This document shows positions 9,976 to 62,699 of a stretch of 64,000 nucleotides of DNA, piece by piece (position 1 is the first letter of the stretch; every line of letters starts with the position of its first letter). The DNA comes from Apium graveolens (lineage: Eukaryota > Streptophyta > Magnoliopsida > Apiales > Apiaceae). A program made the position numbers and the translations under genes. The stretch is taken from the NCBI RefSeq assembly GCF_009905375.1, contig NC_133648.1, positions 92,242,474 through 92,306,473 of the forward strand. The letters are read 5' to 3'. The notes beneath the pieces are model-generated. The model ran no database searches. It was not told the DNA's origin and saw only the letters and a list, made by a program, of their open reading frames with translations.

Positions 9976-10992
9976 TGTTATTCCCTAACAATACAACAAG
10001 AATTACAGAAGGGGGTTGAATGTAATTCTGACTAATTTTTTAATATTTTAAAACAGTTCTAACTCGACAAATATATAAGTGTTTGATTTGCAGATTGCGG
10101 AATGAAGTAGTTATATAAATCAAAACACAAAGTAATAAAAACTCAAGCTTTTAAAACTTTCTGGTGGATTTGAAAGTATCCACCAGATATATATATATAT
10201 ATATATAAATATATATATCGAATGAGAACCCTGTGAAGCTTGAATAGCCCTCAGCTACTTACAAATAGAACAAATAAATTACAGAGAAATTCTTGACAAG
10301 TACAGCTTTTTCTATCTCTCTTTGAAATGTGTTTGCTTAGTTGAATCTTCTACTAGCTACACTTGGTTTATATATCACCAAGTTTACATGACAATAAGAT
10401 AAGATAATAAAAAAACATATCTAGTCTAACTCCATGCTACTTCACTACTCTATTCCAGCATCTTTGAATAACTTCACAATTGCATGGAAATGGTAATGCT
10501 TCTTTTTTCTCAAATCCCTGCTTAACAGGTTGCCATATTCCTTTTGCAAACACCCAACGCATGTGACTGTGTTGTCACTGTTAACAGATATTTGAATTTG
10601 ATCATCCGTCAGGTACATGTTTGTCATCCGTCGGGTAGCTTCGTTATCATCCGTCGGGTAGCTTTGTTGATCATCTGTCGGGTAGCTATTTGTCACTTGA
10701 CTCCATTTCACTTATACAGAATTACAAGACATCTTATATTTACAATTAATCAACCTATTATGCATATCCACTAGTAGTCAACATGACTCATATAGTCCTA
10801 CAGAATCTACACAATGTTGTTTGCAAAAATGTGCTACAATACTTATTATTACATAAGCTACTCACCCGGTGGATAATTGTCATCCGTCGGGACTATATTA
10901 AATCATCCGTCGGGTGCTACAAAATTCACTAAGTTAAATCTACTAAGGTGTTTTGTTTAATTTGTCATCAAATTCATAACATATTCCTAACA
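9976..10992 (-). mobile_element. R2 5' LTR
   Basis: This 1,017-bp LTR on the minus strand opens TGTTAGGAATATGT and ends GGGAATAACA before the primer site. Two motif clusters of the CCGACGGAT type lie in U3 (plus positions 10,864-10,918 and 10,601-10,690, the second with units like AAGCTACCCGACGGATGA). The TATA box is inside an inverted repeat at 10,361-10,383. A perfect 9-bp inverted repeat (CTGGTGGAT and ATCCACCAG, 10,161-10,186) lies downstream, next to an (AT)n run (10,190-10,218). The conserved C-tract, GGGGGTTGAA on the plus strand, is at 10,011-10,020. The LTR is homologous to the R7 5' LTR along its length. Confidence 0.85.
10361..10383 (-). promoter_or_regulatory. R2 LTR TATA box within a perfect inverted repeat
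   Basis: On the element strand, ACTTGGT, then GATATATAA, then ACCAAGT. The 7-bp arms are perfect complements and the 9-bp centre is the presumed TATA box. The same arms occur at 45,051-45,073 (R7) and 39,150-39,172 (R6). Confidence 0.65.
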
Positions 10993-13122: not shown

Positions 13123-13621
13123 TGCAACTAGAAATAAAGTTGACTTTTCCTAAAGAGATGAAATTTTGGCTAAGTCAAAATTTATATCTCGACGGATGTT
13201 CATTATCCGTTGAAAATGAATATCCGTTGAATTTCATTATCTATTGAAAATCAAATATTTTTCTGGGTACTCTATATCTCGATGGATAATTGCTTAATCT
13301 ATATCCGTTGAATTGCTTTAATCATAGCCTTTAATTCTATACATTATCCGTCAAATTTACTTATAGTATGTATGTATATGTCGATGGATAATCTTTAGAA
13401 TTTCTAAAATTTCCTTTATTTATTTTAAACGACTATTTTTGGCAATTTTCATTGAGTACATTATTGTACTTTTAATTTTTTATTTATTAATTTCTGAGAA
13501 AGTATAAAAGCCCCTTTCAATTTTTCATTTTACTTTTATTTATCTCATTGTCATCAAAGAAATTTTTACTCTCTTCATCTCCGAAAACCCTCTTTCTCTT
13601 TAACTGCTTTCAATCATAAAA
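13123..13621 (+). promoter_or_regulatory. R3 pol-ORF3 spacer with motif hairpin and internal TATA box
   Basis: This non-coding spacer holds at least six motif copies between 13,189 and 13,395. One is an inverted pair, TCGACGGAT (13,189-13,197), loop GTTCATT, ATCCGTTGA (13,205-13,213). A TATA box (GTATAAAAG, 13,502-13,510) lies 119 bp ahead of the ORF3 ATG, followed by a CT-rich leader (TCATCT, CTCTTT). R2 and R7 keep the same order. It is probably a promoter for ORF3. Confidence 0.55.
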
Positions 13622-23762: not shown

Positions 23763-23776
23763 AGCTCTGATGCCAT
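23763..23776 (-). other. R5 primer-binding site
   Basis: On the element strand ATGGCATCAGAGCT follows the 5' LTR. It differs at one base (TGGCATC, not TGGTATC) from the initiator-Met type site of the other elements. Confidence 0.75.
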
Positions 23777-32621: not shown

Positions 32622-35600
32622 CTTCATTCGCAACTGCAAACTAAGTTATGCTATGCTTGAGTCTCCAGTAATCTATTGTGAAGTTGTGGAGCAGATTTGG
32701 ACTACGACTGTGTACAACTCCAAGGATAAAACCATTGCCTTCTCTCTTAAAGGTAATGATTACTGTATTAATTGTGATAAAATACAAGCTTGCTTCTATT
32801 TTCTTGAAAATAACACTAATGTTCCACACACAGACACAGATATAAGCACCATGTTTATGTCTATGGGCTATTCTCTCAATCCTGTCAAACTATGTGAGAT
32901 TTAAAGAATGGGCCTTAAAAAAGAATAGAGCTTTTTCTGTGATTCTTTTATAAAATCCTTTTGTGATAAAATTAGCAACTTTGATGCAGTTACTTATTCA
33001 ATGATTAACATGCTCTATATGCTTTTGAATGACAAGTACTTTAGTTTTTGTAACTATGTCACTATAAAATTAGGGTATAAATTAGTAGATATCAAGAAAA
33101 GGTCAAAGAACATATACTATGCTAGGTTTCTTATGATGCCAGCAAACCATGTTTCTCAGGACCTCTTGATTGAGAACCCAACAAATAAGCTTAATTGTTG
33201 GATCCAAGAAAAGAGGGTACTTGCTGATTTGAACAAGAACAATCTTCATAGTGAAGTGCCTCTCAACTATCTGCAAATCACGGAGACACCTCAGGTAAGT
33301 GAGGTAACTATTTCTATCATAACTCTTTCCCAACCTCCAGTTTCTTTGCATTCAACTGTGGCTATGACATCTATGACTGTGACCAAACAGATGCCTACCC
33401 AAGCCACAAAACCAAAAACTTTTAAATCCAAATCAAAGAAACAACACTCTAGTTTCTCTCAATAGAAGCTAGTTTTAAAAACTACCACAACACAAGAGGG
33501 GAGTGTCAAGGGTGGTAAGCAAGGTGAGGGACAGGGTGAACATAAAAGAAGCCCTTAGGATAAGGTGAGAGAGGTTAGTGAATCCCAGCCTACCCATACC
33601 ACAGTCTCCCAACATGTTGTGCTGATTAATAAGGAAAGTAGCACATTGCTAGTTGCATCCTCCCAAAAGGATGTAACTATTGAAAATAGCTCATCTCCAG
33701 GAGCACAGAACAAAAGGGGTAGGGACACTACAGGCCAAACTCAAACCTACATTAGAAAGAAGAAATTAAAAAGTTTGGGGGAGTCACATGGTCCATACAT
33801 AGTGCCAACTGCAGTCAAAGACTCAGTTAATGCACCATCTTAAATTCAGGTTGATGTGGCTCCAATAAATGTGGAGTCACAACCAAATTCTCTCTCAATT
33901 GAAACACCTCACACACATAATTATCCCACAAACTCACTAGATGTGGATATGATAAACACATCATTTCCTGATTCTCCATCTTTGAAACTCATGGAGGAGC
34001 CAAAATCTAAAGCAAGTGAGCATCATCTTATTGATGATTTGTTGGCTCACTTGCCATTTCTTTCTGAAACTACTGATGAGTCTGTGCATAAAAATCTGCA
34101 ATCAATCGCCACAGACTCAACTATAGTTTCAACTCCTAATGCTTTCATTTATGCCTCTTCTACGGATATTTCTCATCCGTTGATCAGTGATTGTCCTTCT
34201 ATGGATATGACTAACAGCAGTCATCCGTTGATACTCAAAACTGCTATTTCAACGGATGTCTCTCATCCGTTGGAAGTCTCTACACAGCTTGAGATTTCTA
34301 AACTTTTGACTAGTGTAGATGACTTAGTAGTTGTTCAATCACTCTTAGGATTGAGGGAAGGGAGTGACTTGAGTGAGAGGCTGAGTTGCTCTCAGGAAAA
34401 AGGAGAGGATAAGAGTGTAATTCATTATGATGTTTCTTCCAGCATGGAAAAAGTGAGTGAGAGGAGTCATACCTTAGATGGTGAAGGTGAGGGTGTGGGG
34501 TGGGTAGCCAAGGAGAGCCCTTGATGTAAAAATAGAGAGAAAATGAGAGAAAGGCAGGTACAGAAGAATGGAAAGATCCCATTGCTAGTGAGTTAATGGA
34601 TGTCAATGATGCAAACAAAGAGAAACTATTTCACCTAGAATATCAAGTTGTTCTAGATTATGTCTCTTTTGATGCTGATGCATTTACTCACCCTATTCCA
34701 GCATATTAGATTCTAAATGAACAGGGCAATGAGGATGCTGAGAAGACTCTAAATTTGGTACACACTACAGGCTCTATGCTAAGGGCAAAGGATGCAATTA
34801 ACTCTCTTCCATCTACAGCTAGTGATGATTTTAAGTTTAATTCTGATGATTCTTTTGGGGATGATTCTCATGGAGAAGATGCTGATGAAACTGGCATGAA
34901 CACAGGGGGAGATCCAGAACCTAGCTCATCTATAGACACTCCATCCTCGATGCTCACTAAAGATTGCAGTTATCATCACTTCACATCCACTCTATTCAAG
35001 CTCATTCATCAGACTTAAATAGCCATTCAAGCCACCATCAATGCTAATACCAAAATTCTTCTACAAGCCCATCTTGAATCTCTTCAGTTGCATAAAATTC
35101 AAGCTCTCAAACATAATCAAGATGTGGATGAACTCAAGAATTCTATTGATAAATTCAAGGAGGATCTCAATAAGAGACTGGATTCCAAACTTACTTCGTC
35201 AACCATGACAGACATACACCAGAAGCTCAGGAAGGAATCTGACTTGAATAGAAAGATTGAGGATTTGGGTACAAGAATGTCAAAAGTGGAGAACTCAATT
35301 GCTCAAATCCTTACCATTTAATAAACTCAAACTCTTCTACTACATCAACTGATGGAAGCTCAACCTTCAATCCCTGCTCTACTTGATGCTAATAAAAGAG
35401 GGAGAAAAATCTAAGTGTACAAGTCAATAAGGTAATTGTTCCAGCCATTACCTTCTCAAAGCCACAAGTGTTAGATATTATTGATCTAATCAACATAGCA
35501 ACAGTTGAACTCAAGCTAAAACAGAAAATGAAGAATATTGATGAAAGAATTGAGAAGGAATTTGGTCCAATTGCCAATCAAGACAAATTTGTGAAGCACT

Positions 35601-44320: not shown

Positions 44321-44395
44321 TGTTAGGAATATGTGTATTAGTTTGATGATAAGTTAAACAAAACACTTAAGTAGAAATCTAGTGTTTGTAGCCTC

Positions 44396-44805
44396 AACGG
44401 ATAAGACCATCTTGGCTATCCGTTGAAGGAGTAGCTTTACTTAGCAATAAGTTTAGTATTGTAGCACATTTCATTCTCTGGATTCAAGTTGTAATTCTTA
44501 GATGTTGTAGGAAATTATCTGTCATGTTAACTACTAGTGGATATGCAAATAGGATGGCTAATTGTAAATATTTCATGCCTTGTAATTTTGTATAAGTGAA
44601 GAAGTATCAACTGATATTGAAGACCTTCAACGGATAAGAAACAAAGCTTCAACGGATGTCTCTAAAGCTTCAACGGATAATATCCATCAACAGATAAGTG
44701 CTTCAACGGATAAAGACTTCAACTGTTAATGCATCAACGGATAAAGCTTCAACGGATAAAGCCTCAATGGATAAGGCATCAACGGATGAAAGCTTCAACG
44801 AATGC
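44396..44805 (+). repeat. R7 LTR cluster of the TCAACGGAT motif
   Basis: Nine exact copies (eight as TCAACGGAT, one as ATCCGTTGA) and at least three one-base variants (ATCAACAGAT, TCAATGGAT, TCAACGAAT) are packed here, spaced roughly 15-25 bp apart in the right-hand part. A given 9-mer is expected once per about 262,000 positions in random DNA. Confidence 0.9.
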
Positions 44806-45050
44806 TTAGTTCATTAGCAGTTGATAGTGACAATTCATAAGCTGACAGAGGCACATGGGTTGACAGAGACAAACTGGAATGTGGAAGCCTCTAGGAGGAA
44901 TCAAGAAAATGCAGCATTTCCATTCTGGTGCAAACAAGGAAGTATTCAAAGATTAACAGCTAAGCCTAAATTGCATTGGATAGAGAAATGAAGAAGAAGC
45001 ATGTGAAGAGCCTTTTTAATTGTATTTTACAGTTTTGTCTTCACTTGTAA

Positions 45051-45073
45051 ACTTGGTGATATATAAACCAAGT
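45051..45073 (+). promoter_or_regulatory. R7 LTR TATA box within a perfect inverted repeat
   Basis: ACTTGGT (45,051-45,057), GATATATAA (45,058-45,066), ACCAAGT (45,067-45,073). It is identical in arms and centre to R2. Confidence 0.65.
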
Positions 45074-45423
45074 AGCAGCTAGTAATTAGATATGAATTTT
45101 CCAGAGCTGTTTAGAAAAATCCAGAGAGAAAATCATCTAGTTTGTACTAGGAAGCAGCTGTGATTTAATTCTTTGAATCACAGATTTTCTGAAATAACAC
45201 ATCTCTGGTAGAACAACAAATCCACCAGAAAAGTTTTTAAGTTCTATGTGTTCTTTACATTTGTATTTGAATATATATCTGTCTGCATTAGCTTCAAGCA
45301 ATTCACACACATTTGCTCACAAAAACACTTAGCCTTAGAAACTGGTCAAAACATGAAAAAGTTTTGAGATTTACATTCAACCCCCCTTCTGTAAATCTCA
45401 TTGTTAGTCCACGGGGAATAACA

Positions 45424-45437
45424 ATTGGTATCAGAGC
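45424..45437 (+). other. R7 primer-binding site
   Basis: ATTGGTATCAGAGC directly follows the LTR CA end, the initiator-Met tRNA type. Confidence 0.9.
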
Positions 45438-45483
45438 TAGCTCTTAATATACAAAGAGTTTAAAGATCTATTCTGCTAACATC

Positions 45484-47887
45484 ATGAGTAAGAAGGATAT
45501 TGGTGTAAAGATTCCAATCTTGGAAAGAGATAACTATCATCACTGGAAAGTGAAGATGCATTTACATCTTCTCTCTCAAGATGAAAGCTACATCAACTGC
45601 ATTGAAAATGGTCCTCACATCCCTCAAAAGGTGGCCACAGCTGCTACTACAACAGTTGTTGTTGGACAGTCTATTCCCAAGCCAAAAGCAGAATGGACTG
45701 TTGAAGAGATTGAAGAGGTTCACAAGGACAAGAAAGCCATGAACATTCTGTTTAATGGCCTAGATCAAGATATGTTTGACAATGTCATTAACAGCCAAAC
45801 TGCTAAGGAAATTTGGGATACTGTGCAGCTTATCTGTGAAGGCACTGAGCAAGTTAGAGAAAAAAAATACAGCTTCTCATTCAACAGTATGAATATTTTC
45901 ATTTTGAAGAAGGAGAATCATTGAATGATACCTTCAACAGATTTCAGAAACTGTTGAATGGATTGAAGCTGTATGGCATAATGTACCAAGTCAAGGACTC
46001 CAATTTAAAATTTCTAAGGTCTCTACCAAAGGAATGGAAGCCTATGACTGTTTCTCTAAGAAATTCTCAAGATTATAAGGACTTTACACTTGAAAGATTA
46101 TATGGAATTTTGAAGACATATGAACTTGAGATGGAGCAAGATGAGCTGTTGGAAAAGGGAAAGAGAAAAGGAGGATCAGTTGCACTTGTAGCTGACAGTG
46201 AGAAGGTTGGAGCCAGGAATGAGGAGAAGACAATGCCAAGTCTCAAAATTGGCACAAGCAAATCAGAATCAAGCAAGGGTAAAGAGCAAGTAGCTGAGGA
46301 TGAAAATAATTCCAGTCAGGATGACTCTGATGATGTTGATGAACATCTGGCTTTCTGTCCAGGAGGTTTGCAAAGATGAAGTTTAGGAAAAATACAAAAT
46401 TCACTAAGCCAAACAAAAACATGGTGGACAAATCCAAGTTCAAATGTTATAATTGTGGCATTAGTGGACACTTTGCAAGTGAGTGTAGGAAGCCAACCTC
46501 TGATAAGAAAAAATTTGAGCAAGTTGATTAAAAAAAGAAGTATTTTGATTTGTTCAAACAAAAGGAAAGAGCTTTTCTCACTCAAGATGATTGGGCAGCA
46601 GATGGAGTCAATGAAGATGATGATATGGAATATGTTAACCTAGCCCTGATGGCTAATTCTGATGAAAATGAAACTAGTTCATCAAGCAACCAGGTAATTA
46701 CTACTGATCTCTCTCAGCTTTCTAAAAATGAATGCAATGAAGCCATAAATGATATGTCCAATGAATTATATCATCTGCGTGTTTCCCTTAACTCACTAGC
46801 TAAAGAAAACACTAGGATCAAAGAGAATAATGTGTTTTTAAGTGATAGGAATGCTGTGTTAGAGGATCAGGTAATTGAGCTTGAAAAGATTAAACTTAAA
46901 TGCTTGACTGTTGAGAGTGAACTAGAAGAAGCTGTTAAGAAAGTAGAAATTCTTTCTAAACAGTTAGAAAGTGAGCAAGAGGTAATCAAGGCCTGGAAAA
47001 CATCTAGGGATGTTAGTGTTCAGATTGCCAAGGTTCAGGGAATTGAATCATTCTCTGAGGATGCCTGGAAGGAAAACAAAAAGGAGTTGGAATTAATTGA
47101 TGGATTGTGAACGGATGTGGAATCAACGGATGATGAAAGTTATCCGTTGAAGGAAGAAAAGGAGCATCCGTTGAAGGCTCATCAATTAAAACAGGCAAGT
47201 AATTTCAAAAATAAAAATCTCAATAAGAAGGATGGTTCAACTCTCAAGAACTTTGTCAAAGAAGGAGCTAGCACATCCAAAGATGCCAGTAAGGTGAATA
47301 TAGGACACATGACTTTAGATCAGCTGAAAAATAGGCTTAAGTTGGTTGAGGATAAGAAGGAAACTAAAAGAAAATCTAAAAGAAATGGGAAGGTAGGGAT
47401 TAATAAACATAACAATTACACACCTGATAGGTATACTCCTAGAAAAAGCCGTGTATATTGTAAAAGTGTTAATCACCTATCTGATAATTGCAAATCTGTT
47501 AAAAATGCTCCCATGCCTTCAAATCCCTCCATGCCTAACATGTCTATGTCACCTCTGCATGCTATGCCTTTTATGTCTCATCCGAATCCCCATGCATATT
47601 TTGCAAACATGCCATATATTAATAATCCTTATTTTACTGCATTTAGTATGCCTCAAATGCCATACAATATGCCTATGTGGAATAACATGTTTGCACAATC
47701 TATGCCTTATCAAATTCAATCAAATGTGCTAAATGATTCTGTGACTAACCCTACACTTCAACCAACCACATCTGAGATCAAGGTTGACCCAAAGTTACCT
47801 ATGTCAAAAGATGCAGGAGGAATGAAGTCTAGGAAAAAGACTAACAAGGCTGGACCCAAGGAAACTTGGGTACCAAAATCAACTTGA
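45484..47887 (+). pseudogene. R7 gag, broken
   Basis: The start is MSKKDIGVKIPILERDNYHHW. The capsid-like domain contains KAMNILFNGLDQDMFDNVI and LKFLRSLPKEWKPMTVSLRN. First zinc knuckle, intact: CYNCGISGHFASEC (about 46,444-46,486). A long coiled coil follows (46,730-47,000). The second knuckle is YCKSVNHLSDNC (47,455-47,495), its first Cys lost. The tail is Met/Pro/Asn-rich (47,510-47,710) and ends WVPKST, TGA at 47,885-47,887. Damage: 1-bp losses near 45,865 (in an A run) and 46,353, and stops at about 46,529 and 47,107. The motif occurs at 47,110-47,175 read as STDDESYPL and EHPLK. Confidence 0.85.
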
Positions 47888-47891
47888 TTGA

Positions 47892-48401
47892 TTTTGTTGT
47901 GTGCAGGGAAAAAGAAGGAATCTATGGTACTTGGACAGTGGCTGTTCAAGACACATGACAGGAGATTTCACCCTGCTCACAGAGTTTAAGGAGAGAGCTG
48001 GCCCTAGCATAACCTTTGGAGATGACAGCAAAGGATTCACTATGGGATATGGCTTGATTTCAAAAGAAAATGTCATCATTGATGAAGTTGCATTGGTTGA
48101 TGGTCTCAAACACAACTTCTTAAGCATCAGTCAACTATGTGACAAAGGGAATACTGTATTCTTTAATTCTGAAGCCTGTATTGTCATAAGTAAGAAGGAC
48201 AATAAAGTGGTTCTAACTGGAGTTAGAAAAGGGAATGTGTATTTAGCTGACTTCTACTCTACGGATGCAGAATCTATTACTTGTCTTCTCAGCAAAGGAA
48301 GTTCAGTTGAAAGTTGGCTATGGAACAAGAAGCTGTCCCACTTGAATTTCAAGACAATGAATGATTAGAGGAATGCCTCTAGTAGAATTCACAAGGGATG
48401 G
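47892..48401 (+). pseudogene. R7 protease and GAG-pre-integrase, interrupted by R8
   Basis: The frame is open from 47,892, one frame off from gag and starting only after a TGA. The protease active site is WYLDSGCSRHMTGD (about 47,922-47,962). Conserved GYGLISKENVIIDEVALVDG and LSISQLCDKGN follow. The pre-integrase zinc region reads WLWNKKLSHLNF: the first zinc-ligand His is Asn. A short deletion near 48,367 shifts the frame (FKTMND, stop, then RGMPLVEFTRDG in another frame). R8 then interrupts inside the codons for DG, and the Cys ligands (LCDACQKGK) lie at 57,506 onward. Confidence 0.85.
48397..48401. repeat. R8 target-site duplication GATGG
   Basis: GATGG occurs at 48,397-48,401 and 57,501-57,505, flanking the entire R8 array. 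Removing the array and one copy restores the pol reading RDG-LCDAC. Confidence 0.95.
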
Positions 48402-50280
48402 TGTAATATCCGTATTTTTATTTTAATTATTATCTATTTAATATTTGTATTAGTTAGAAATAGATTAGAATTAGTAATAATAGTAATTTTTAATACAATT
48501 TGATTTGGAATAGAATTAGTAATTATATTATTAATTAGATTAGGGATAGGATTCTATTAATTGTGGGCTTGTGGGCCTATAAATATATATATATATATAC
48601 AAGTTATGTCCTATTCTATGTCTTTTTAATTGGAGCCGCTCTTAGAGGCTAGGGTTTGAGAAGACAAGAAGATCTTAGAAGTTTATTCTTGTGTTATTCG
48701 ATTGATCAAGGTACGAGAATCGATCTTTTCTTCTTCATAATCATATCATGTTCATCTTCTTATTTGTTTGTGCTGAAATTCGTATATGATAATATCAGCA
48801 TCTCGTATCTGTTGTAAAATCCATAACTTATTCGTTTGTACACGGAATTCATTGATTCTTGATTTTCTGGAAAGCTTGTTTCGATACCTACAACTTCCAT
48901 GTTTACATATTTTGTGGAATCAGCCTCTAACTATGTGCAAATATCCATTCTTTGTGACCTTTCAGATTTATGACGTGAACAGTTTTTCATACCTTCTAAA
49001 ATTCGTTATAAATCGATCTTATGTCGGAAAATTACTCATGATATCAATCTGGAAAGCTTATGAAATTCTCTTTCATTATATGGTATATCCATTATATATT
49101 TAAATCTTTTAAATTGCCTAAATTGCCTTACAAATATTCTGGTCTGTTTATACTTATCAGCATAGTTGTTTCATGTTCAAAAATTCATATCTTCTTCATT
49201 ATTCGTCATAAAATTATGATCTTTATAAATTATGAAACCTCTGAGAATTCTCTTTCATTGTCTAGTTATAGTCGAAGTGAGATCAGATTGTCTTTATTGT
49301 CTAAATTTGCCTTCTTTGTAATCTGTTCCTGAATAATTTCTGCTGTGATACCTGAACTTCAAAAATTCATAACTAATTCGTTATCAGTGCGTCTTTGATG
49401 AATCTTATCATTTTGGAATCCTTGTTAAATCTACTTTATTTCTCCAGTTGACCATTATTTCAAATCCTTAACTTATCTGCTGTTAAAATTTGAATTAGTA
49501 TAAGTTGTTCACTTTCAATCGTATTTCAACAATCCGATTTAATGGTCCATCAGATGAGGTACGGATTTCGTCCCCTTTCTTACAGTGCTACTCCTTTTAT
49601 TATTAAATATATCTGATTCTTTCCCTTCATATTTTTATTCATTCCGTTCTTATTCGTTTGATCTCTGAAAATTATTTTAAATCTGTTCTGGAAGTTTTAA
49701 ATATTTAATCTTGCGAGCTTTAAAATTATGTTTGTTAAATATCTATTTAGAATATTTGAAGTATCTGCTGCAAGTGATTCTTAAAATTGTGAAAATTATT
49801 TTATTTGAACCCTTAGAGTGAAATAGGGTATACCGAGTTAACCAGCTGTAGGGGTACTACAGCCATGTCATTGCGGCACCAGTGACATGACACTTCCGTG
49901 ACAGTGTGATTGGTCACGGCGTATCCTTCTGTTAGCTCTTGGGAGGAGCTTTTGCGCATTTGATATTTGTTCAGGATACGTGGGTGCACCCAGAGTTTGA
50001 TTTGTGATTTGAATTATGGTGACGTTGTATATGCCGTACGCGTTATCCATTCTGTTGCACGCATTAGGTACCCTATGATGTGTGTATTTGTATATGTTCT
50101 GTTCTGATCTCGGTATAAAATATCCTAGCCCTCGTTGCTTCAGCCTTACTTATTTTTAAAATTTTTGTTTTATTATAAATGACTGATTATTTATTTTTAT
50201 TTTTTTTTTGATCTCTTGTTTTATAAATTGTATTCCAAATCCGTACTGGGCATTTGGCTCATGCCGTATTCTTTTTCTTA
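48402..50280 (+). mobile_element. R8 LTR1, 3'-truncated
   Basis: It starts TGTAATATCCG after GATGG and follows the full LTR to ATTCTTTTTCT. It is then joined through TA to the TG end of LTR2. The two bases TA match the last two bases of the internal region, so the missing part is the LTR end plus nearly all of an internal region. It differs from LTR2 by a few bases and a longer (AT)n tract. Confidence 0.9.
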
Positions 50281-52422
50281 TGTAATATCCGTATTTTTAT
50301 TTTAATTATTATCTATTTAATATTTGTATTAGTTAGAAATAGATTAGAATTAGTAATAATAGTAATTTTTAATACAATTTGATTTGGAATAGAATTAGTA
50401 ATTATATTATTAATTAGATTAGGGATAGGATTCTATTAATTGTGGGCTTGTGGGCCTATAAATATATATATATACAAGTTATGTCCTATTCTATGTCTTT
50501 TTAATTGGAGCCGCTCTTAGAGGCTAGGGTTTGAGAAGACAAGAAGATCTTAGAAGTTTATTCTTGTGTTATTCGATTGATCAAGGTACGAGAATCGATC
50601 TTTTCTTCTTCATAATCATATCATGTTCATCTTCTTATTTGTTTGTGCTGAAATTCGTATGTGATAATATCAGCATCTCGTATCTGTTGTAAAATCCATA
50701 ACTTATTCGTTTGTACACGGAATTCATTGATTCTTGATTTTCTGGAAAGCTTGTTTCGATACCTACAACTTCCATGTTTACATATTTTGTGGAATCAGCC
50801 TCTAACTATGTGCAAATATCCATTCTTTGTGACCCTTCAGATTTATGACGTGAACAGTTTTTCATACCTTCTAAAATTCGTTATAAATCGATCTTATGTC
50901 GGAAAATTACTCATGATATCAATCTGGAAAGCTTATGAAATTCTCTTTCATTATATGGTATATCCATTATATATTTAAATCTTTTAAATTGCCTAAATTG
51001 CCTTACAAATATTCTGGTCTGTTTATACTTATCAGCATAGTTGTTTCATGTTCAAAAATTCATATCTTCTTCATTATTCGTCATAAAATTATGATCTTTA
51101 TAAATTATGAAACCTCTGAGAATTATCTTTCATTGTCTAGTTATAGTCGAAGTGAGATCAGATTGTCTTTATTGTCTAAATTTGCCTTCTTTGTAATCTG
51201 TTCCTGAATAATTTCTGCTGTGATACCTGAACTTCAAAAATTCATAACTAATTCGTTATCAGTGCGTTTTTGATGAATCTTATCATTTTGGAATCCTTGT
51301 TAAATCTACTTTATTTCTCCAGTTGACCATTATTTCAAATCCTTAACTTATCTGCTGTTAAAATTCGAATTAGTATAAGTTGTTCACTTTCAATCGTATT
51401 TCAACAATCCGATTTAATGGTCCATCAGATGAGGTATGGATTTCGTCCCCTTTCTTACAGTGCTACTCCTTTTATTATTAAATATATCTGATTCTTTCCC
51501 TTCATATTTTTATTCATTCCGTTCTTATTCGTTTGATCTCTGAAAATTATTTTAAATCTGTTCTGGAAGTTTTAAATATTTAATCTTGCGAGCTTTAAAA
51601 TTATGTTTGTTAAATATCTATTTAGAATATTTGAAGTATCTGCTGCAAGTGATTCTTAAAATTGTGAAAATTATTTTATTTGAACCCTTAGAGTGAAATA
51701 GGGTATACCGAGTTAACCAGCTGTAGGGGTACTACAGCCATGTCATTGCGGCACCAGTGACATGACACTTCCGTGACAGTGTGATTGGTCACGGCGTATC
51801 CTTCTGTTAGCTCTTGGGAGAAGCTTTTGCGCATTTGATATTTGTTCAGGATACGTGGGTGCACCCAGAGTTTGATTTGTGATTTGAATTATGGTGACGT
51901 TGTATATGCCGTACGCGTTATCCATTCTGTTGCACGCATTAGGTACCCTATGATGTGTGTATTTGTATTTGTTCTGTTCTGATCTCGGTATAAAATATCC
52001 TAGCCCTCGTTGCTTCAGCCTTACTTATTTTTAAAATTTTTGTTTTATTATAAATGACTGATTATTTATTTTTATTTTTTTTTGATCTCTTGTTTTATAA
52101 ATTGTATTCCAAATCCGTACTGGGCATTTGGCTCATGCCGTATTCTTTTTCTGGCAGGTGCTTAGGGGGTTCTGGGACTGTGTGATGGAGAGCTACCCTT
52201 TATTTCATTTTTAGGATTTCAGACTTCTATCATTATTTAGACCTAATTTCTTATTAGAGATTTCAGCATTTATATTTTTGGTTTAGATATTTTGAAGATT
52301 TAATATTATTTTTTTGAAGATTTTAGACTGTTTAATTATTGTTAGAAATATATTAGTGCTCTGTTTGCAGGTTTTGGATTTTAAGTAATATTTCCCTTCT
52401 ATTTTAAGAAGGGGGTGTTACA
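50281..52422 (+). mobile_element. R8 LTR2, full length
   Basis: 2,142 bp, TGTAATATCCG to GGGGGTGTTACA, followed by a primer site. A TATA-like CCTATAAATATA is near 50,456. Two adjacent hairpins (CATGTCA/TGACATG and CCGTGA/TCACGG) lie in the stretch around 51,737-51,797. Confidence 0.9.
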
Positions 52423-52819
52423 GAGTTGGTATCAGAGCTTAGGTTCTTTCTTGTAGAAAACCTACTTAGGTTGACCTGTGAGTTTGGGTAGATGATAGGA
52501 TGGGTGTTCCATTTAATTTCGTTTCATTATGCTCTTTATCGTTTCATTTTGCTTTATCATTTGAAATCTGTTTGTAACTGCTTCATCATATTTATTCTCG
52601 TACTCTTCATTCGTTCGCTATCTTAGCTCGAGAGGAGCGAGTTTTGAGGAAGAACACCATTCCGTTTGTGAAAGTTTTGTGGAAAAATCATTCGGAAAGA
52701 GAGGCTACTTGGGAATTAGAAGAATCTATTCGTGAGAAATATCCGCATTTGTTCGATTCAGGTACGAGTTTTAGTTTCGTTCGATTCCGGGGACGGAATC
52801 CTTTTTAAGGGGGTATATA
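52423..52819 (+). other. R8 internal region, first surviving copy
   Basis: The primer site TGGTATCAGAGC is at 52,427-52,438. A leader runs to about 52,625, then the pol 3' end, and the polypurine tract AAGGGGGTATATA (52,807-52,819). Gag, protease, RT and integrase are missing as one deletion with a junction near 52,620-52,630. Confidence 0.9.
52629..52808 (+). pseudogene. R8 chromodomain end of pol, first copy
   Basis: This 59-codon open tail contains IPFVKVLWKNHSEREATWEL and ends SIREKYPHLF...GRNPF with TAA at 52,806-52,808. VKVLW...ATWE...YPHLF is the C-terminal chromodomain signature of Ty3/Gypsy chromoviruses (Tekay/Del type), where it directs integration through histone marks. There is no start codon and nothing upstream, so it cannot make an enzyme. 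Confidence 0.85.
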
Positions 52820-54961
52820 TGTAATATCCGTATTTTTATTTTAATTATTATCTATTTAATATTTGTATTAGTTAGAAATAGATTAGAATTAGTAATAATA
52901 GTAATTTTTAATACAATTTGATTTGGAATAGAATTAGTAATTATATTATTAATTAGATTAGGGATAGGATTCTATTAATTGTGGGCTTGTGGGCCTATAA
53001 ATATATATATATACAAGTTATGTCCTATTCTATGTCTTTTTAATTGGAGCCGCTCTTAGAGGCTAGGGTTTGAGAAGACAAGAAGATCTTAGAAGTTTAT
53101 TCTTGTGTTATTCGATTGATCAAGGTACGAGAATCGATCTTTTCTTCTTCATAATCATATCATGTTCATCTTCTTATTTGTTTGTGCTGAAATTCGTATG
53201 TGATAATATCAGCATCTCGTATCTGTTGTAAAATCCATAACTTATTCGTTTGTACACGGAATTCATTGATTCTTGATTTTCTGGAAAGCTTGTTTCGATA
53301 CCTACAACTTCCATGTTTACATATTTTGTGGAATCAGCCTCTAACTATGTGCAAATATCCATTCTTTATGACCCTTCAGATTTATGACGTGAACAGTTTT
53401 TCATACCTTCTAAAATTCGTTATAAATCGATCTTATGTCGTAAAATTACTCATGATATCAATCTGGAAAGCTTATGAAATTCTCTTTCATTATATGGTAT
53501 ATCCATTATATATTTAAATCTTTTAAATTGCCTAAATTGCCTTACAAATATTCTGGTCTGTTTATACTTATCAGCATAGTTGTTTCATGTTCAAAAATTC
53601 ATATCTTCTTCATTATTCGTCATAAAATTATGATCTTTATAAATTATGAAACCTCTGAGAATTCTCTTTCATTGTCTAGTTATAGTCGAAGTGAGATCAG
53701 ATTGTCTTTATTGTCTAAATTTGCCTTCTTTGTAATCTGTTCCTGAATAATTTCTGCTGTGATACCTGAACTTCAAAAATTCATAACTAATTCGTTATCA
53801 GTGCGTTTTTGATGAATCTTATCATTTTGGAATCCTTGTTAAATCTACTTTATTTCTCCAGTTGACCATTATTTCAAATCCTTAACTTATCTGCTGTTAA
53901 AATTCGAATTAGTATAAGTTGTTCACTTTCAATCGTATTTCAACAATCCGATTTAATGGTCCATCAGATGAGGTACGGATTTCGTCCCCTTTCTTACAGT
54001 GCTACTCCTTTTATTATTAAATATATCTGATTCTTTCCCTTCATATTTTTATTCATTCCGTTCTTATTCGTTTGATCTCTGAAAATTATTTTAAATCTGT
54101 TCTGGAAGTTTTAAATATTTAATCTTGCGAGCTTTAAAATTATGTTTGTTAAATATCTATTTAGAATATTTGAAGTATCTGCTGCAAGTGATTCTTAAAA
54201 TTGTGAAAATTATTTTATTTGAACCCTTAGAGTGAAATAGGGTATACCGAGTTAACCAGCTGTAGGGGTACTACAGCCATGTCATTGCGGCACCAGTGAC
54301 ATGACACTTCCGTGACAGTGTGATTGGTCACGGCGTATCCTTCTGTTAGCTCTTGGGAGGAGCTTTTGCGCATTTGATATTTGTTCAGGATACGTGGGTG
54401 CACCCAGAGTTTGATTTGTGATTTGAATTATGGTGACGTTGTATATGCCGTACGCGTTATCCATTCTGTTGCACGCATTAGGTACCCTATGATGTGTGTA
54501 TTTGTATTTGTTCTGTTCTGATCTCGGTATAAAATATCCTAGCCCTCGTTGCTTCAGCCTTACTTATTTTTAAAATTTTTGTTTTATTATAAATGACTGA
54601 TTATTTATTTTTATTTTTTTTTGATCTCTTGTTTTATAAATTGTATTCCAAATCCGTACTGGGCATTTGGCTCATGCCGTATTCTTTTTCTGGCAGGTGC
54701 TTAGGGGGTTCTGGGACTGTGTGATGGAGAGCTACCCTTTATTTCATTTTTAGGATTTCAGACTTCTATCATTATTTAGACCTAATTTCTTATTAGAGAT
54801 TTCAGCATTTATATTTTTGGTTTAGATATTTTGAAGATTTAATATTATTTTTTTGAAGATTTTAGACTGTTTAATTATTGTTAGAAATATATTAGTGCTC
54901 TGTTTGCAGGTTTTGGATTTTAAGTAATATTTCCCTTCTATTTTAAGAAGGGGGTGTTACA
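52820..54961 (+). mobile_element. R8 LTR3, full length
   Basis: 2,142 bp, exactly 2,539 bp downstream of LTR2 and almost identical to it, with isolated substitutions (for example TATGACCC for TGTGACCC near 53,368, and GTCGTAAAA for GTCGGAAAA near 53,438). Confidence 0.9.
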
Positions 54962-55358
54962 GAGTTGGTATCAGAGCTTAGGTTCTTTCTTGTAGAAAAC
55001 CTACTTAGGTTGACCTGTGAGTTTGGGTAGATGATAGGATGGGTGTTCCATTTAATTTCGTTTCATTATGCTCTTTATCGTTTCATTTTGCTTTATCATT
55101 TGAAATCTGTTTGTAACTGCTTCATCATATTTATTCTCGTACTCTTCATTCGTTCGCTATCTTAGCTCGAGAGGAGCGAGTTTTGAGGAAGAACACCATT
55201 CCGTTTGTGAAAGTTTTGTGGAAAAATCATTCGGAAAGAGAGGCTACTTGGGAATTAGAAGAATCTATTCATGAGAAATATCCGCATTTGTTCGATTCAG
55301 GTACGAGTTTTAGTTTCGTTCGATTCCGGGGACGGAATCCTTTTTAAGGGGGTATATA
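54962..55358 (+). other. R8 internal region, second copy
   Basis: 397 bp with the same deletion junction, primer site and polypurine tract as the first copy. The shared junction shows that the deletion preceded duplication. Confidence 0.9.
55168..55347 (+). pseudogene. R8 chromodomain end of pol, second copy
   Basis: The same 59-codon tail as at 52,629 with one visible change (SIHEKYPHLF for SIREKYPHLF). The frame is still open. Confidence 0.85.
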
Positions 55359-57500
55359 TGTAATATCCGTATTTTTATTTTAATTATTATCTATTTAATA
55401 TTTGTATTAGTTAGAAATAGATTAGAATTAGTAATAATAGTAATTTTTAATACAATTTGATTTGGAATAGAATTAGTAATTATATTATTAATTAGATTAG
55501 GGATAGGATTCTATTAATTGTGGGCTTGTGGGCCTATAAATATATATATATACAAGTTATGTCCTATTCTATGTCTTTTTAATTGGAGCCGCTCTTAGAG
55601 GCTAGGGTTTGAGAAGACAAGAAGATCTTAGAAGTTTATTCTTGTGTTATTCGATTGATCAAGGTACGAGAATCGATCTTTTCTTCTTCATAATCATATC
55701 ATGTTCATCTTCTTATTTGTTTGTGCTGAAATTCGTATGTGATAATATCAGCATCTCGTATCTGTTGTAAAATCCATAACTTATTCGTTTGTACACGGAA
55801 TTCATTGATTCTTGATTTTCTGGAAAGCTTGTTTCGATACCTACAACTTCCATGTTTACATATTTTGTGGAATCAGCCTCTAACTATGTGCAAATATCCA
55901 TTCTTTGTGACCCTTCAGATTTATGACGTGAACAGTTTTTCATACCTTCTAAAATTCGTTATAAATCGATCTTATGTCGGAAAATTACTCATGATATCAA
56001 TCTGGAAAGCTTATGAAATTCTCTTTCATTATATGGTATATCCATTATATATTTAAATCTTTTAAATTGCCTAAATTGCCTTACAAATATTCTGGTCTGT
56101 TTATACTTATCAGCATAGTTGTTTCATGTTCAAAAATTCATATCTTCTTCATTATTCGTCATAAAATTATGATCTTTATAAATTATGAAACCTCTGAGAA
56201 TTCTCTTTCATTGTCTAGTTATAGTCGAAGTGAGATCAGATTGTCTTTATTGTCTAAATTTGCCTTCTTTGTAATCTGTTCCTGAATAATTTCTGCTGTG
56301 ATACCTGAACTTCAAAAATTCATAACTAATTCGTTATCAGTGCGTTTTTGATGAATCTTATCATTTTGGAATCCTTGTTAAATCTACTTTATTTCTCCAG
56401 TTGACCATTATTTCAAATCCTTAACTTATCTGCTGTTAAAATTCGAATTAGTATAAGTTGTTCACTTTCAATCGTATTTCAACAATCCGATTTAATGGTC
56501 CATCAGATGAGGTACGGATTTCGTCCCCTTTCTTACAGTGCTACTCCTTTTATTATTAAATATATCTGATTCTTTCCCTTCATATTTTTATTCATTCCGT
56601 TCTTATTCGTTTGATCTCTGAAAATTATTTTAAATCTGTTCTGGAAGTTTTAAATATTTAATCTTGCGAGCTTTAAAATTATGTTTGTTAAATATCTATT
56701 TAGAATATTTGAAGTATCTGCTGCAAGTGATTCTTAAAATTGTGAAAATTATTTTATTTGAACCCTTAGAGTGAAATAGGGTATACCGAGTTAACCAGCT
56801 GTAGGGGTACTACAGCCATGTCATTGCGGCACCAGTGACATGACACTTCCGTGACAGTGTGATTGGTCACGGCGTATCCTTCTGTTAGCTCTTGGGAGGA
56901 ACTTTTGCGCATTTGATATTTGTTCAGGATACGTGGGTGCACCCAGAGTTTGATTTATGATTTGAATTATGGTGACGTTGTATATGCCGTACGCGTTATC
57001 CATTCTGTTGCACGCATTAGGTACCCTATGATGTGTGTATTTGTATTTGTTCTGTTCTGATCTCGGTATAAAATATCCTAGCCCTCGTTGCTTCAGCCTT
57101 ACTTATTTTTAAAATTTTTGTTTTATTATAAATGACTGATTATTTATTTTTATTTTTTTTTGATCTCTTGTTTTATAAATTGTATTCCAAATCCGTACTG
57201 GGCATTTGGCTCATGCCGTATTCTTTTTCTGGCAGGTGCTTAGGGGGTTCTGGGACTGTGTGATGGAGAGCTACCCTTTATTTCATTTTTAGGATTTCAG
57301 ACTTCTATCATTATTTAGACCTAATTTCTTATTAGAGATTTCAGCATTTATATTTTTGGTTTAGATATTTTGAAGATTTAATATTATTTTTTTGAAGATT
57401 TTAGACTGTTTAATTATTGTTAGAAATATATTAGTGCTCTGTTTGCAGGTTTTGGATTTTAAGTAATATTTCCCTTCTATTTTAAGAAGGGGGTGTTACA
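55359..57500 (+). mobile_element. R8 LTR4, full length
   Basis: 2,142 bp ending GGGGGTGTTACA directly before GATGG and the resumed R7 pol. It has private changes such as AGGAACTTTT for AGGAGCTTTT near 56,898. Confidence 0.9.
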
Positions 57501-57505
57501 GATGG

Positions 57506-60329
57506 ACTGTGTGATGCTTGTCAGAAAGGAAAGCAAAAGAAAGTATCATTCAGTAAGAAGCTTGAATCTGCAATTGATGAACCATTACAACTGCTACACA
57601 TGGATCTTTTTGGACCAGTCAATGTATTGTCAATTTCAAGGAAAAAATATTGCCTAGTGATTGTAGATGATTTCTCAAAGTTTTCATGGGTTTATTTTCT
57701 TGGATCAAAGGATGAAGCTAGTGAAATCATTATCAATAATATCAAGCAAGTCAACAATCATCCTGATTTCAAAGTAAGGAATATTATGAGTGACAATGGA
57801 ACTGAGTTCAAGAATTCAACCATGAAGTTGTTCTGTGAAGAAAATGGGATCATGCATGAGTTCTCAGCTCCAAGGACCCCACAACAAAATGGTGTGGTGG
57901 AAAGGAAGAACAGATCACTAATTGAAGCTGCAAGGACAATGCTTGAAGAGTCAAAACTCACAACTTACTTTTGGGCTGAGGCTGTTAACTGTGCATGTTA
58001 CACTCAGAATATTTCTCTAATCAATCAGGCAAAAGGCACGACTCCCTATCAATTATTCAAGAGAAGAAAACCAACTTTAAACTTTCTGCATGTCTTTGGG
58101 TGCAAATGTTACATCTTAAGGAATCAATCTGATCACAAAGGGAAGTTTGATGCAAAGGCTGATGAAGGAATATTTGTTGGTTATTCTGCTGGAAAATCAT
58201 ATAGGGTCTACAATCTAAGAACCAACATTGTCATGGAATCTGTGCATGTTGTGTTTGATGATAAAAAGATTGATGAACTAACAGATGAGGGACATCATGA
58301 AGGACTCAAATTTGAAAATATTGAGATATATTGTGATGATACTGAAGATGAGAATGATGAAGAAGGCATCTCAAGAAGAATTCAAAATCTGCCTTTGGAT
58401 AATGCACATAATGCTGCATCCGTTGAAAGTCATAATTCAGCTTCCGTTGAAAGAAGCAATGCAGCATCCGTTGAAAGACAAAGTGCATCATCCGTTGAAG
58501 TTCATAATGAAGCATCCGTTGATCACGGTCTGTCAACGGATAATCAATTCACTTCATTAGTTGATAGAGCTCCCAATTCCTTTCAAAGGATCAGCAACTC
58601 AGGGGGAGTTTCAACCAATCAACATTCTATCACACATCATGACAATACTGAGGCAACCTCATCTAGAGCTAATCTACCACCTCAAAGGAAATGGACCAAG
58701 AATCACCCTTTTGAACTGATCATTGGTGATTCTACATCTAAAGTGCAAACTAGAAGGGCTACTCAAGATGAATATTTGTATAGTAGCTTTCTATCACAGG
58801 AGGAACCTAAGAGAGTAGAAGAAGCTCTATTGGATCCAGATTGGATTTTAGCAATGCAAGAGGAGCTAAACCAATTTGAGAGAAACAAAGTATGGAAGCT
58901 GGTACCCAAGCCAAAGAACAAGAGTTCTATTGACACAAAATGGGTATTCAGAAACAAGATGGATGAAAATGGCATTGTCATAAGGAATAAAGCCAGATTG
59001 GTTGATAAAGGTTATTCTCAACAAGAGGGAATAGATTTTGATGAAATATTTGCTCCAGTTGCCAGACTTGAGGCTATCAGAATCTTTCTAGCCTATGTAG
59101 CCCATGCCAATTTCAAAGTCTATCAAATGGATGTAAAGAGTGCATTTCTAAATGGGGAATTGGAGGAAGAAGTTTATGTAAGCCAACCTCCAGGGTTTGA
59201 AGATCCCAACTTTCCAGACTATGTGTATTATCTGTTGAAAGCACTCTATGGACTAAAGTAAGCACCTAGAGCCTGGTATGAGACTTTGTCAAAATTTCTT
59301 CTAGATAATCACTTCACAAGAGGTACTGTTGACAAAACTCTTTTCTTTAGAAATGTTAATGGCTCTACAATACTTGTTCAAATTTATGTAGATGATATTA
59401 TATTTGGATCTACAGATGATAAGCTCTGTAAAAGGTTTGCTAAGTTAATGCAAAGTAAATATGAAATGAGCATGATGGGAGAGCTAACTTATTTTCTTGG
59501 TTTACAAGTTAAACAAGTTAGTGGTGGAATTTTCATTAGTCAAACTAAATATATTTATGATCTTTTAAAGAAGTTTGACTTAATGGACTGTTCATCTGCA
59601 AAAACTCCCATGGCCACTGCCACCAAGCTTGAATTAAACAAGGCTGAAAAGTCTGTGGACATTTCAAGTTATAGAGGCATGGTTGGCTCACTTTTATATT
59701 TAACTGCTAGTAGACCTGATATAATGTTTTCTACATGTCTCTATGCTAGATTTCAAGCTGACCCTAAAGAATCTCACTTAGTGGCTATTAAAAGAATCTT
59801 CAGATATCTCAAAGGGACTCCAAATCTAGGAATTTGGTACCCTAGAGAGTCTGGTTTTGATCTAATTAGCTACTCAGATGCAGATTATGCAGGCTGCAAA
59901 ATAGACAGGAAAAGCACAACTGGCACCTGTCAATTTCTAGCGAACAAGCTTGTGTCATGGTTCAGCAAGAAGCAAAATTCTGTTTCTACATCAACAGCTG
60001 AAGCTGAGTACAATGCTGCTGGTAGTTGCTGTGCACAGATACTATGGATGAGGAATCAACTATTTGACTATGGACTAACTGTTGACAAAATTCCTATATT
60101 CTGTGACAACACAAGTGCCATTGCCATTACTGAAAATCCAGTGCAGCACTCAAGAACCAAGCATATTGACATCAAGTACCACTTCATTAGGGAAAATGTG
60201 ATGAAAGGTACAGTGGAACTTCATTTTGTTCCAAGTGAAAAGCAGATTGCAGACATATTTACCAAGCCACTTGATAAATCAACATTCACAAGATTAGTAA
60301 GTGAGCTAGGTATGCTTAATTATTCATAA
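57506..60329 (+). pseudogene. R7 integrase, RT and RNase H
   Basis: It resumes with LCDACQKGK (zinc-ligand Cys residues). Integrase follows ([49 protein letters not shown]) with Asp, Asp and Glu positions retained, then GIFVGYS. The IN-RT linker contains five ASVE/ASVD units. RT follows with [26 protein letters not shown], a stop at LYGLK*AP (59,259-59,261), then [10 protein letters not shown]. RNase H has YSDADYAGC, STAEAEYNAAGS, CDNTSAIAITENPVQHSRTK and ends MLNYS with TAA at 60,327-60,329. The frame offset from RT to the downstream half is nil; only the TAA breaks it. Catalytic motifs look intact. Confidence 0.9.
58418..58541 (+). repeat. motif copies in the R7 IN-RT linker
   Basis: Units of about 24 bp carry ATCCGTTGA (four exact copies plus one variant, CTTCCGTTGA) and end with one TCAACGGAT. 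The motif is read here as A-S-V-E, a different frame from the H-P-L reading in gag and ORF3. R2 has the same units with ATCCGTCGG (7,050-7,130). Confidence 0.85.
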
Positions 60330-60872
60330 ATTTATGTCCTCTATATAATCTGCCTTGAAGCCTAAAATGAATTTGCTGCAAGAACAAAGTTGGCTTTAAG
60401 TAAGACTTATTCTATCAACGGATATCCCCTATCCGTTGAAAGCCAAAATTGTTCTATCAACGGATGTTCATTATCCGTTGAAAGACAAATACATTTCTAG
60501 TAATTTTGTCCCTCAATGGATAAAATAGTGTTGATCATCAACGGATAACTATTTACCTTATCCGTTGAAGTGTCACATCAGTTACTTTAAATGAGTCACA
60601 ACCGTTGATTCTTTTACTTAATTGTTGATACAGATATACACTGTTGTATGTATTTGTATTAAAGGCAATTTTCAGAATTTCTACAGTTTTCTTTATTCTT
60701 AAACGGCTGTAATTTGTTTAAAAGTATCATTTAATCATTTTATTTACGTTTTAATTCAAGAAAGTATAAAAGCCCATTGAATTCTTATTTTCACTTTACG
60801 CTTTCTTGCAATTTTTATTCTCCTTCTCTCCCAATATTCTCAAGTTTTTCTCTGCAACCTCTACTCACAACA
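60330..60872 (+). promoter_or_regulatory. R7 pol-ORF3 spacer: three hairpins and an internal TATA box
   Basis: Three perfect inverted motif pairs lie in a row: 60,415-60,439 (10-bp stem, loop TCCCC), 60,457-60,481 (9-bp stem, loop GTTCATT) and 60,538-60,568 (11-bp stem, 9-nt loop). A TATA box GTATAAAAG at 60,764-60,772 lies about 108 bp ahead of the ORF3 ATG, followed by a CT-rich leader (TTCTCCTTCTCTCCC). R2 and R3 keep this order. A promoter for a separate ORF3 mRNA is inferred. Confidence 0.6.
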
Positions 60873-61275
60873 ATGGCACCAGTAGTCAAAATTATGTCTC
60901 AATCTGGATTTGTTTATGAAAAGAATAATTTCGTAGCCTTGGTTGAAAAGAATGAAGCCCATTCTGATTATCACAAGATGATGGACTTCATCAAAAACTG
61001 CAAACTAAGCTATGCAATGCTGAAAGCCCCAATCATCTACTGTGAGGTGATTGAGGAGATTTGGACAACTGCAGAGTTCAACTCAACAGATATGACTATT
61101 GCCTTCTCTCTCAAAGGTAAGGATTATTGCATTAACTGTGATGATATACAGTCTTGCTTTAAGTTGCCTGAGAATAATGCCATGACACCACACACTGATA
61201 AAGATGTATCTGCTATGTTAGATTCCATAGGCTATGCTTTTGATTCTGCTAGTTTAGGTAGTATTAGAAGGAAGG
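60873..61275 (+). pseudogene. R7 ORF3, N-terminal part, cut by R9
   Basis: I choose the ATG at 60,873 (MAPVVKIMSQSGFVYEKNNF), although the frame is open upstream to 60,777. The homologues in R2 and R3 start here, and the TATA box would place the upstream ATG in or near the transcription start. There are about 134 codons with no stop: CKLSYAMLKAP, IIYCEVIEEIWTT, FSLKGKDYCINCDDIQSCF, LGSIRRK. R9 then begins at 61,276. No signal peptide or membrane segment is visible, so the label 'envelope-like' is not supported by this part. Function unknown. Confidence 0.75.
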
Positions 61276-62603
61276 TGTAAGTCATATGTCATAGCCTATT
61301 TGTATATTCGAGGATTCAACTCAACTCAAATAAGAATGTAATAAGTAAATAGTGGATCTACCGTCAAAGAGATCTCGCAAAGTAATATCTGTCAAAGGAT
61401 TCAGAAATAAGGTTCATCTACAGACTTGAGGAATTAATTCACTGGAAGAAGTTCAAGAAATTGATCATGCCTCAGTGATATAAATCAAGATTGTGGATTT
61501 AATCAAGTGACCGAGATCTCGTCAGAGTATCATTAATTACAAGGATTTAATCTGAAGAAAATTAAAGTATCAAAGTCAAGACATGAAGAAACGTCACGGA
61601 AGTTAGTCACTCATGAACCAGACAGTACATCGAGTGTCAACATTGAAGTGGTGGAATTGATTCATAATTTTCAGTGATTTTCAGAAGATTTGCAGAAGAA
61701 TGGTTGCAGTTCAAGAATAGTATTAATTCTCTATTAATTAATTAAGTCATATAATTTAATTAAGAAAATAAATTATATCTGCAAAGATTAATTTATTTAT
61801 TAATTGAATTAATTGATTAATTAATTCTGAATTAATATTAAGATTTTTCAGAATTGTTTTTGGATTAAAATCAGTTTAAATCAGCAAGACAATTGAAAAT
61901 GAACTAGCATGACAATCTGGATTGTCATACCGATTATCATGCCAAGTCATTTCAATTGTCATACCGAAAGTTACACTGGGAGGAGGATTGTCTTGCCAGT
62001 TCATTCTGATTGTCTTGCTAGTTCAATCAATAGTCTCACCGAAAGTCTTGCTAGCTCAATGGATTGTCTTGCTAGCTCAATGGATTGTCTTGCTGAGCTA
62101 AAAGGATTGTCTTGCCAACAAATCAGGTGGTTGTTTTATTATTTAAACAACAGAAGCAACAGAAGTCAATCATTCATCCAACAAAAACAGAACCCGAGAA
62201 CAAAAGAAAAAGAAGCAGAAAAATATTTCATCTCATCTGCAAACTTCAAGATCAATTTCTAGATTGTAAAGTTAAATCCAATCAACTAGAAATCTTTATC
62301 TTGTTCTTGTGTAACAATCTAGCGGATCAAAATCCCTAGAACTTAATCTCAAATTGCGTTTAGCATTTGAATCTTTTTATTACAAAAATAGAAAAAGTTC
62401 ATGTCGAATTTATTCTAGATTTGTGATAATTAATTTGAGATTAATTCCTTGTAATCGATATAGTTGTTGTAACACCTTTCAAGTTTAATAATATTTTTAT
62501 TTAACTTGAATTTTGTTTCACATTTTTTATTCCGCATTTAATTCGATTATTCGGTACTGTTTGTATTCAACCCCCCCTTCTACAAACACATTGGGACCTA
62601 ACA
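61276..62603 (+). mobile_element. R9 5' LTR
   Basis: 1,328 bp, TGTAAGTCATATG to ATTGGGACCTAACA. It contains its own short repeat cluster (61,900-62,120). An AT-rich core sits in a perfect inverted repeat (GTTGTTT 62,130-62,136, AAACAAC 62,145-62,151). The C-tract CAACCCCCCCTTCT is near 62,569-62,582. The left end is set by the break in R7 ORF3; the partner LTR is not in the window. Confidence 0.75.
61900..62120 (+). repeat. R9 LTR short repeat cluster
   Basis: Units like GATTGTCTTGCTAGCTCAATG, about 21 bp long, are repeated. They are near-perfect in the stretch 62,041-62,100 and looser to the left (ATTGTCATACCGA, ATTGTCTTGCCAG). They lie in the U3 part, as the motif clusters do in R2, R6 and R7. 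Confidence 0.8.
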
Positions 62604-62618
62604 ATTGGTATCAGAGCC
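62604..62618 (+). other. R9 primer-binding site
   Basis: ATTGGTATCAGAGCC follows the LTR end, the initiator-Met tRNA type. Confidence 0.9.
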
Positions 62619-62699
62619 TTCTGATTAACGAACAAATCAAGATCCTAGACTTTTGTGATTTTTCAACTCCTTGAATTTTTATTTATTCAAAAATTCATA

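Follow-up and report, generated by a model that had tools for sequence, protein, structure and literature searches.

A 64,000-nucleotide stretch of the celery (Apium graveolens) genome, here the window (NC_133648.1, positions 92,242,474 to 92,306,473), raises the question of why a single 9-bp word, TCAACGGAT, should recur throughout one retrotransposon, R7. The window holds 29 exact copies, 23 of them within 44394–60568, where 44394 is the start of the first R7 copy. Our recount returned the division given in a preliminary description of this DNA: nine in the long terminal repeat (LTR), three in gag, five in the linker between integrase and reverse transcriptase (IN–RT linker) and six in the spacer between pol and the third open reading frame (ORF3). 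The best overall explanation, to which we give a probability of about 50%, is that the word is bound by the ORF3 protein of its own element family in a role like that of the VANC proteins of VANDAL transposons.

Chance does not account for these numbers. One hundred dinucleotide shuffles of the window gave a mean of 0.32 copies (maximum 3), and 300 first-order Markov simulations of the two R7 pieces (44320–48400 and 57490–61280) gave a mean of 0.01 against the 23 observed, with the commonest 9-mer of any sequence reaching at most six copies. The excess over shuffled controls is thus clear, and the earlier estimate of far less than one chance copy holds. One-base variants had also been reported, and with one mismatch allowed the window has 66 sites against 12.2 expected. 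We compared R7 with four elements fetched in halves: L094/L095 and L098/L099 of the same family (T), L092/L093 of a subfamily (T2) and L096/L097 of a second family (C). In all six T pieces (L094, L098, L092, L093 and two from the window), TCAACGGAT is the top-ranked 9-mer. A Ty1/copia element in the window (16406–24835; it has LTR-like end repeats) served as internal negative control and contains no comparable repeated 9-mer, its commonest having six copies.

The word-bearing elements carry the hallmarks of Sireviruses. R7 pol encodes rve, SH3_retrovirus and then RVT_2 (Pfam), which are domains of Ty1/copia type in Ty1/copia order. Bousios et al. (PMC2829016) list as Sirevirus hallmarks a primer-binding site (PBS) junction, the polypurine tract (PPT) AGGGGGAG 10 bp before the 3′ LTR, an AT/TG attachment site, several PPT copies and a C-rich integrase signal, and our elements match these definitions with one exception. 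The 16-bp junction, CA/ATTGG followed by the PBS TATCAGAGC, is exact at 45422 in the window and in L094, L098 and L093, as well as in the C-family element of the window (9962–9977, minus strand); the fetched C copy, L096/L097, gave no exact match to it. R7 itself has no 3′ LTR; AGGGGGAG-AT-TGTTAG, comprising PPT and attachment site, is present in L095 and L092, further PPT copies were found, and a C-rich stretch lies at 45378, near the LTR end. The word had been described as dispersed through the whole of R7, in coding and non-coding DNA. The dispersal is real, but the element is not whole: a foreign insertion of about 9.1 kb, with repeats of its own and no TCAACGGAT, splits pol at about 48400–57490, and R7 is cut off in ORF3 near 61280.

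Across the 3.33-Gb genome, TCAACGGAT occurs 405,245 times, compared with 31,150 occurrences of its letters in reverse order. A related word, CCGACGGAT, which we found by ranking the 9-mers of the window and which lies in its minus-strand Sirevirus, occurs 167,710 times (2,365 backwards). In the fetched elements the words fall at five stations, namely the LTR, the C terminus of gag, the IN–RT linker, the pol–ORF3 spacer and the C terminus of ORF3, the T2 copy lacking the end of pol and the spacer. We then examined 30 ORF3 loci, each about 3.5 kb long and one of them the window itself; they are the best 30 among 150 scored matches, drawn from 62,175 first-look candidates. All 310 words in these loci lie within two narrow stations: 175 start in the spacer, between 400 and 101 bases upstream of where the ORF3 match begins, and 135 start at +1761 to +1911, near the ORF3 end. 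Spacer words occur in 30/30 loci, and at least one TCAACGGAT-N7-ATCCGTTGA pair in 27/30 (two in 18/30); ORF3-end words occur in 29/30, the exception being the truncated window copy. Two loci, L083 and L084, have identical word positions and may be copies of one segment. The possibility that the copies are scattered at random, raised at the outset, is not what these loci show. Within the window, element R3 has the word inside a fragment of ORF3. The description of the word at the same stations in element R2 holds only in part: the exact word is confined there to the spacer (three copies), and the linker has just one-base variants, at 11262 and 11310. Absent from the earlier description was the related word YCGACGGAT (Y, C or T) at corresponding stations of the minus-strand C-family element at 4300–11000.

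Could such arrays be a neutral tandem repeat, spread by slippage and template switching and multiplied with the elements? Several stations are tandem arrays in regions seemingly tolerant of change, and the elements are very abundant. However, the stations share only the 9-mer, their units differ (15, 24 and 42 bp) and both strands are used, and the Ty1/copia control has nothing comparable. Moreover, the words resist change while their neighbours diverge. Between L098 and T2, identity outside the words is 85.6% (7507/8770), whereas 223/225 word positions are identical; CpGs are kept in 23/25 cases within words and 5/15 elsewhere. When only windows already identical between two T copies serve as controls, 15/16 words are fully identical in T2, compared with 1960/5375 control windows overall, 230/787 near stations and 10/24 containing a CpG. 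Outside the LTR the figures are 8/8 words against 190/526 near-station windows, and 4 of 20,000 permutation draws reach 8/8, a count that serves as a guide only, given that control windows overlap. These non-LTR figures are the safer ones because LTR arrays can align in more than one register; words with no aligned partner (6/31 in T versus T2, 21/31 in T versus C) were left out. From these alignments, the word is very probably under selection at the nucleotide level.

The comparison between families adds a further difficulty for a neutral repeat, which we consider highly improbable overall. L098 and the C copy align at ten sites, and at none of these does the C copy have the T word (near-station controls are unchanged in 44/420), and words are slightly less conserved (65/90) than the rest (5434/7064). 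At seven of these sites, three each in the linker and ORF3 and one in gag, position 3 has G in place of A, against a background of 8.5%; the binomial probability is 3e-6 if sites are independent, which tandem units are not. The other three lack this switch. In the ORF3 pair, TCAACGGATaagcttaacagcagttATCCGTTGA in T faces CCGACGGATaagcttaacagcagttATCCATCGG in C, with the spacer equal and both arms changed. The C word is also present in the LTR and spacer of the C family, though those sites could not be aligned to T. The six T pieces contain 112 TCAACGGAT, two TCGACGGAT and four other ACGGAT-core sites; the two C pieces contain 23 YCGACGGAT, one ACGACGGAT and no TCAACGGAT, and the C element of the window 13 YCGACGGAT, four other sites and no TCAACGGAT. 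LTR-pair identities in the four fetched copies (97.9%, over 668 nt only, 96.9%, 99.5% and 94.4%) make the C copy look the oldest, and some of its words have decayed. As read from the sequences, the word differs between the families in concert at homologous stations, TCAACGGAT in one and YCGACGGAT in the other.

What is kept is a nucleotide word and not a peptide: one word runs through three reading frames. The sense word reads STD (phase 0) in every gene examined; in gag and ORF3 the antisense word is translated as YPL or HPL (phase 1), and in the IN–RT linker as ASVE, SSVE or ASVD (phase 2). The C-family linker reads SSVG or PSVG, in step with that family's own DNA word. Separately, at the protein level, the IN–RT linkers of relatives P0034, P0036, P0045, P0051 and P0110 and the ORF3 end of carrot P0017 have repeated STD, SVD, SMD, HPS or HQL peptides, a pattern that other words of this kind at those stations could produce; the STD and HQL repeats near the carrot ORF3 end would fit a word such as TCAACTGAT.

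What, then, reads the word? A host transcription factor, for example of MYB type, might use it to drive the LTR and an internal promoter before ORF3, with the copies inside genes as enhancers. The MYB-type core is YAACKG, which CAACGG within TCAACGGAT fits, and the LTR array is dense. Bousios et al. (PMC2829016) suggested that repeated motifs may have regulatory roles and that the env-like gene may have its own internal promoter. Yet the sister word YCGACGGAT (CGACGG) occupies the same stations without the AAC core, so that the core is not in every family's word, and gag, the linker and the ORF3 end are unusual places for a promoter. The host-factor role first suggested therefore suits the T word but not its counterpart, and we regard it as unlikely.

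Alternatively, the inverted pairs could form hairpins in RNA or DNA that help to package or dimerize the element RNA, or that give rise to small RNAs in a conflict with the host. In support of this idea, folding exceeded that of shuffled sequence in five of the six stretches tested (z −3.5 to −7.4), the T and C families differ in both arms of the ORF3 pair at once, and palindromes in maize Sirevirus LTRs are described as hotspots of small-RNA mapping (PMC5311732). By contrast, the LTR array, which has most words and in direct copies, does not fold beyond shuffles (z +1.06) and yet has its family's own word, and a hairpin needs no sequence shared across all stations. An RNA element, also among the roles first listed, would thus suit the inverted pairs but not the LTR array, and as a general explanation it is distinctly unlikely.

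A word repeated about thirty times at fixed places points to sites where a DNA-binding protein attaches, and the element itself might make that protein to escape silencing; we think it probable that the word acts as DNA bound by protein. On this view a sequence-specific protein would recognize TCAACGGAT and so mark these celery Sireviruses, and the arrays at five stations, in either orientation, would make a 9-bp site dense enough to distinguish one family of elements. Among the binders named earlier, ORF3, the 'env-like' Sirevirus gene, is the best candidate, and we lean slightly towards it. The predicted model of its N-terminal domain has VANC21–DNA (PDB 9lnj) as its best structural match. 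Acting like the VANC proteins, ORF3 would bind the arrays of its own family and keep or remove silencing marks there; if the specificity of the protein changed, the word would change in concert at every station. That the outcome of binding is anti-silencing has, in our judgement, a little less than an even chance. More tentatively still, ORF3 may be a sequence-specific, VANC-fold anti-silencing factor that binds the repeated motifs of Sireviruses, which here would reach into genes of the element; protein and word would co-evolve and change together. Domain searches gave no DUF1985 or DUF287 match in sets of 24 and 46 ORF3 relatives, and a profile comparison of ORF3 with celery DUF1985 scored no better than shuffles. 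PF20167 (Transposase_32, 'putative plant transposon protein') matched 10 of 46 relatives at E up to 1, weakly (best 3.5e-5), and its Pfam name implies no tested function. Genome-wide, there are 52 matches to DUF1985, the VANC domain, and the PF20167 family is very large (15,833 first-look candidates, 150 scored).

Table 1. Word stations and related features in the window.
Feature	Position	Strand	Remarks
5′ LTR of R7 (TGTTAGG...CA), then Sirevirus PBS junction at 45422	44321..45423	+	Sequence; C-rich signal at 45378
R7 LTR station: 9 exact words, 8 sense and 1 inverted (44418)	44394..44787	+	15-bp and 21-bp tandem units
R7 gag C-terminal station: 3 exact words, 1 sense (STD), 2 antisense (YPLK, HPLK)	47123..47174	+	
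R7 IN–RT linker station: 4 antisense words (ASVE/SSVE/ASVD, 24-bp units), 1 sense (STD)	58418..58541	+	Flanked by Pfam rve, SH3_retrovirus and RVT_2
R7 pol–ORF3 spacer station: 6 words in three inverted pairs, two of them TCAACGGAT-N7-ATCCGTTGA	60415..60568	+	
R7 ORF3, N-terminal part, truncated	60873..61280	+	Relatives with long open frames elsewhere in genome; Apiaceae homologues (query: intact L094 copy and its relatives); best-named relatives are proteins of Apium graveolens
R2 spacer station after reverse transcriptase: 3 exact words (13205–13311) and related sites	13189..13354	+	
R3 ORF3 fragment: 3 exact words (34175–34257), two one-base variants	34159..34273	+	
C-family LTR station: 5 ACGGAT-core words, including 4 CCGACGGAT	10604..10913	-	
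C-family gag station: YCGACGGAT words and one CCAACGGAT	8243..8318	-	
C-family IN–RT linker station: 3 CCGACGGAT words	7053..7109	-	Reads SSVG, LSVG on element strand
C-family region after pol: 5 ACGGAT-core sites, both orientations	4948..5151	-	

The insertion in R7 pol includes four tandem unit copies (spacing 1875, 2539 and 2539 bp), 99–100% alike over most of the compared 300-nt stretches, and contains GGTGCACC-type words. The truncation of R7 ORF3 is due to a second Sirevirus at 61281–64000 (PBS junction at 62602), whose start has a different tandem array, with a 21-bp unit, GTCTTGCTAGCTCAATGGATT, at 62045–62115, possibly another family's own word. Outside plants, many IMG/VR phage contigs of about 53–61 kb (L003 and others) carry an inverted TCAACGGAT pair whose total length, 35 nt, is the same in each. 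The 49 viral-contig stretches with such a pair have only two or three words each, and a search of those contigs for relatives of R7 pol found none; the pair is probably one conserved phage site unrelated to the celery word.

Two known systems bear comparison. The first is the Sirevirus repeated motif, which Bousios et al. (2010; PMC2829016) describe as a high-copy, element-specific sequence with a CGG...CCG core, located both in the LTR and ahead of the env-like gene, its function unexplained. The celery words at the LTR and pre-ORF3 stations are the same kind of thing, so that the earlier view that no standard retrotransposon feature explains the word falls for these two of the five stations. 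A repeated motif is found in both the LTR and the DNA upstream of the env-like gene, and the palindromic CGG–CCG unit occurs in the inverted pairs of spacer and ORF3. Unlike the described motifs, the LTR copies are mostly direct half-words, the words also lie in gag, the IN–RT linker and the ORF3 C terminus, and two families have two words at the same stations. As far as the literature searched goes, what is new is the presence of the word at three coding stations and in three reading frames, its mostly half-word array in the LTR, the switch in concert between families and the structural lead towards VANC. In the accessible portions of that literature, no paper was found linking Sireviruses or their repeated motifs with VANC-type anti-silencing, and the reverse-complement word used as a string gave no lead among the matches listed. 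PMC13317346 mentions Sireviruses and VANC or anti-silencing in separate statements, PMC12844716 draws a parallel between VANC and sunflower LTR retrotransposons and likens an extra ORF of the Tekay lineage to double-stranded-RNA-binding proteins, and PMC12859917 reports a talk on VANC–DNA structure.

The second system is VANC21 of VANDAL21 (PMC5735166). VANDALs are Mutator-like DNA transposons whose words are mostly outside coding DNA and share one orientation, and ORF3, whose binding to the word is what we infer, differs from VANC in having no DUF1985 or DUF287 match. A DNA word maintained within three genes and through three reading frames would be an unusual instance of cis-acting selection in the coding sequence of a retrotransposon. 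The likeness lies in a 9-bp, family-specific word in dense arrays, found in the celery elements too, in change through tandem repeats and in an element-encoded protein, for which ORF3 is the candidate. The comparison offers a testable role for the env-like ORF3 and the repeated motifs, both unexplained in Bousios et al. (PMC2829016); were ORF3 a VANC-fold protein, LTR retrotransposons would have a VANC-type system and the function of the env-like gene would be answered. If ORF3 binds the word, VANC-type anti-silencing would not be confined to Mutator-like DNA transposons but would also be used by a Ty1/copia lineage whose word occurs some 400,000 times in a 3.3-Gb crop genome.
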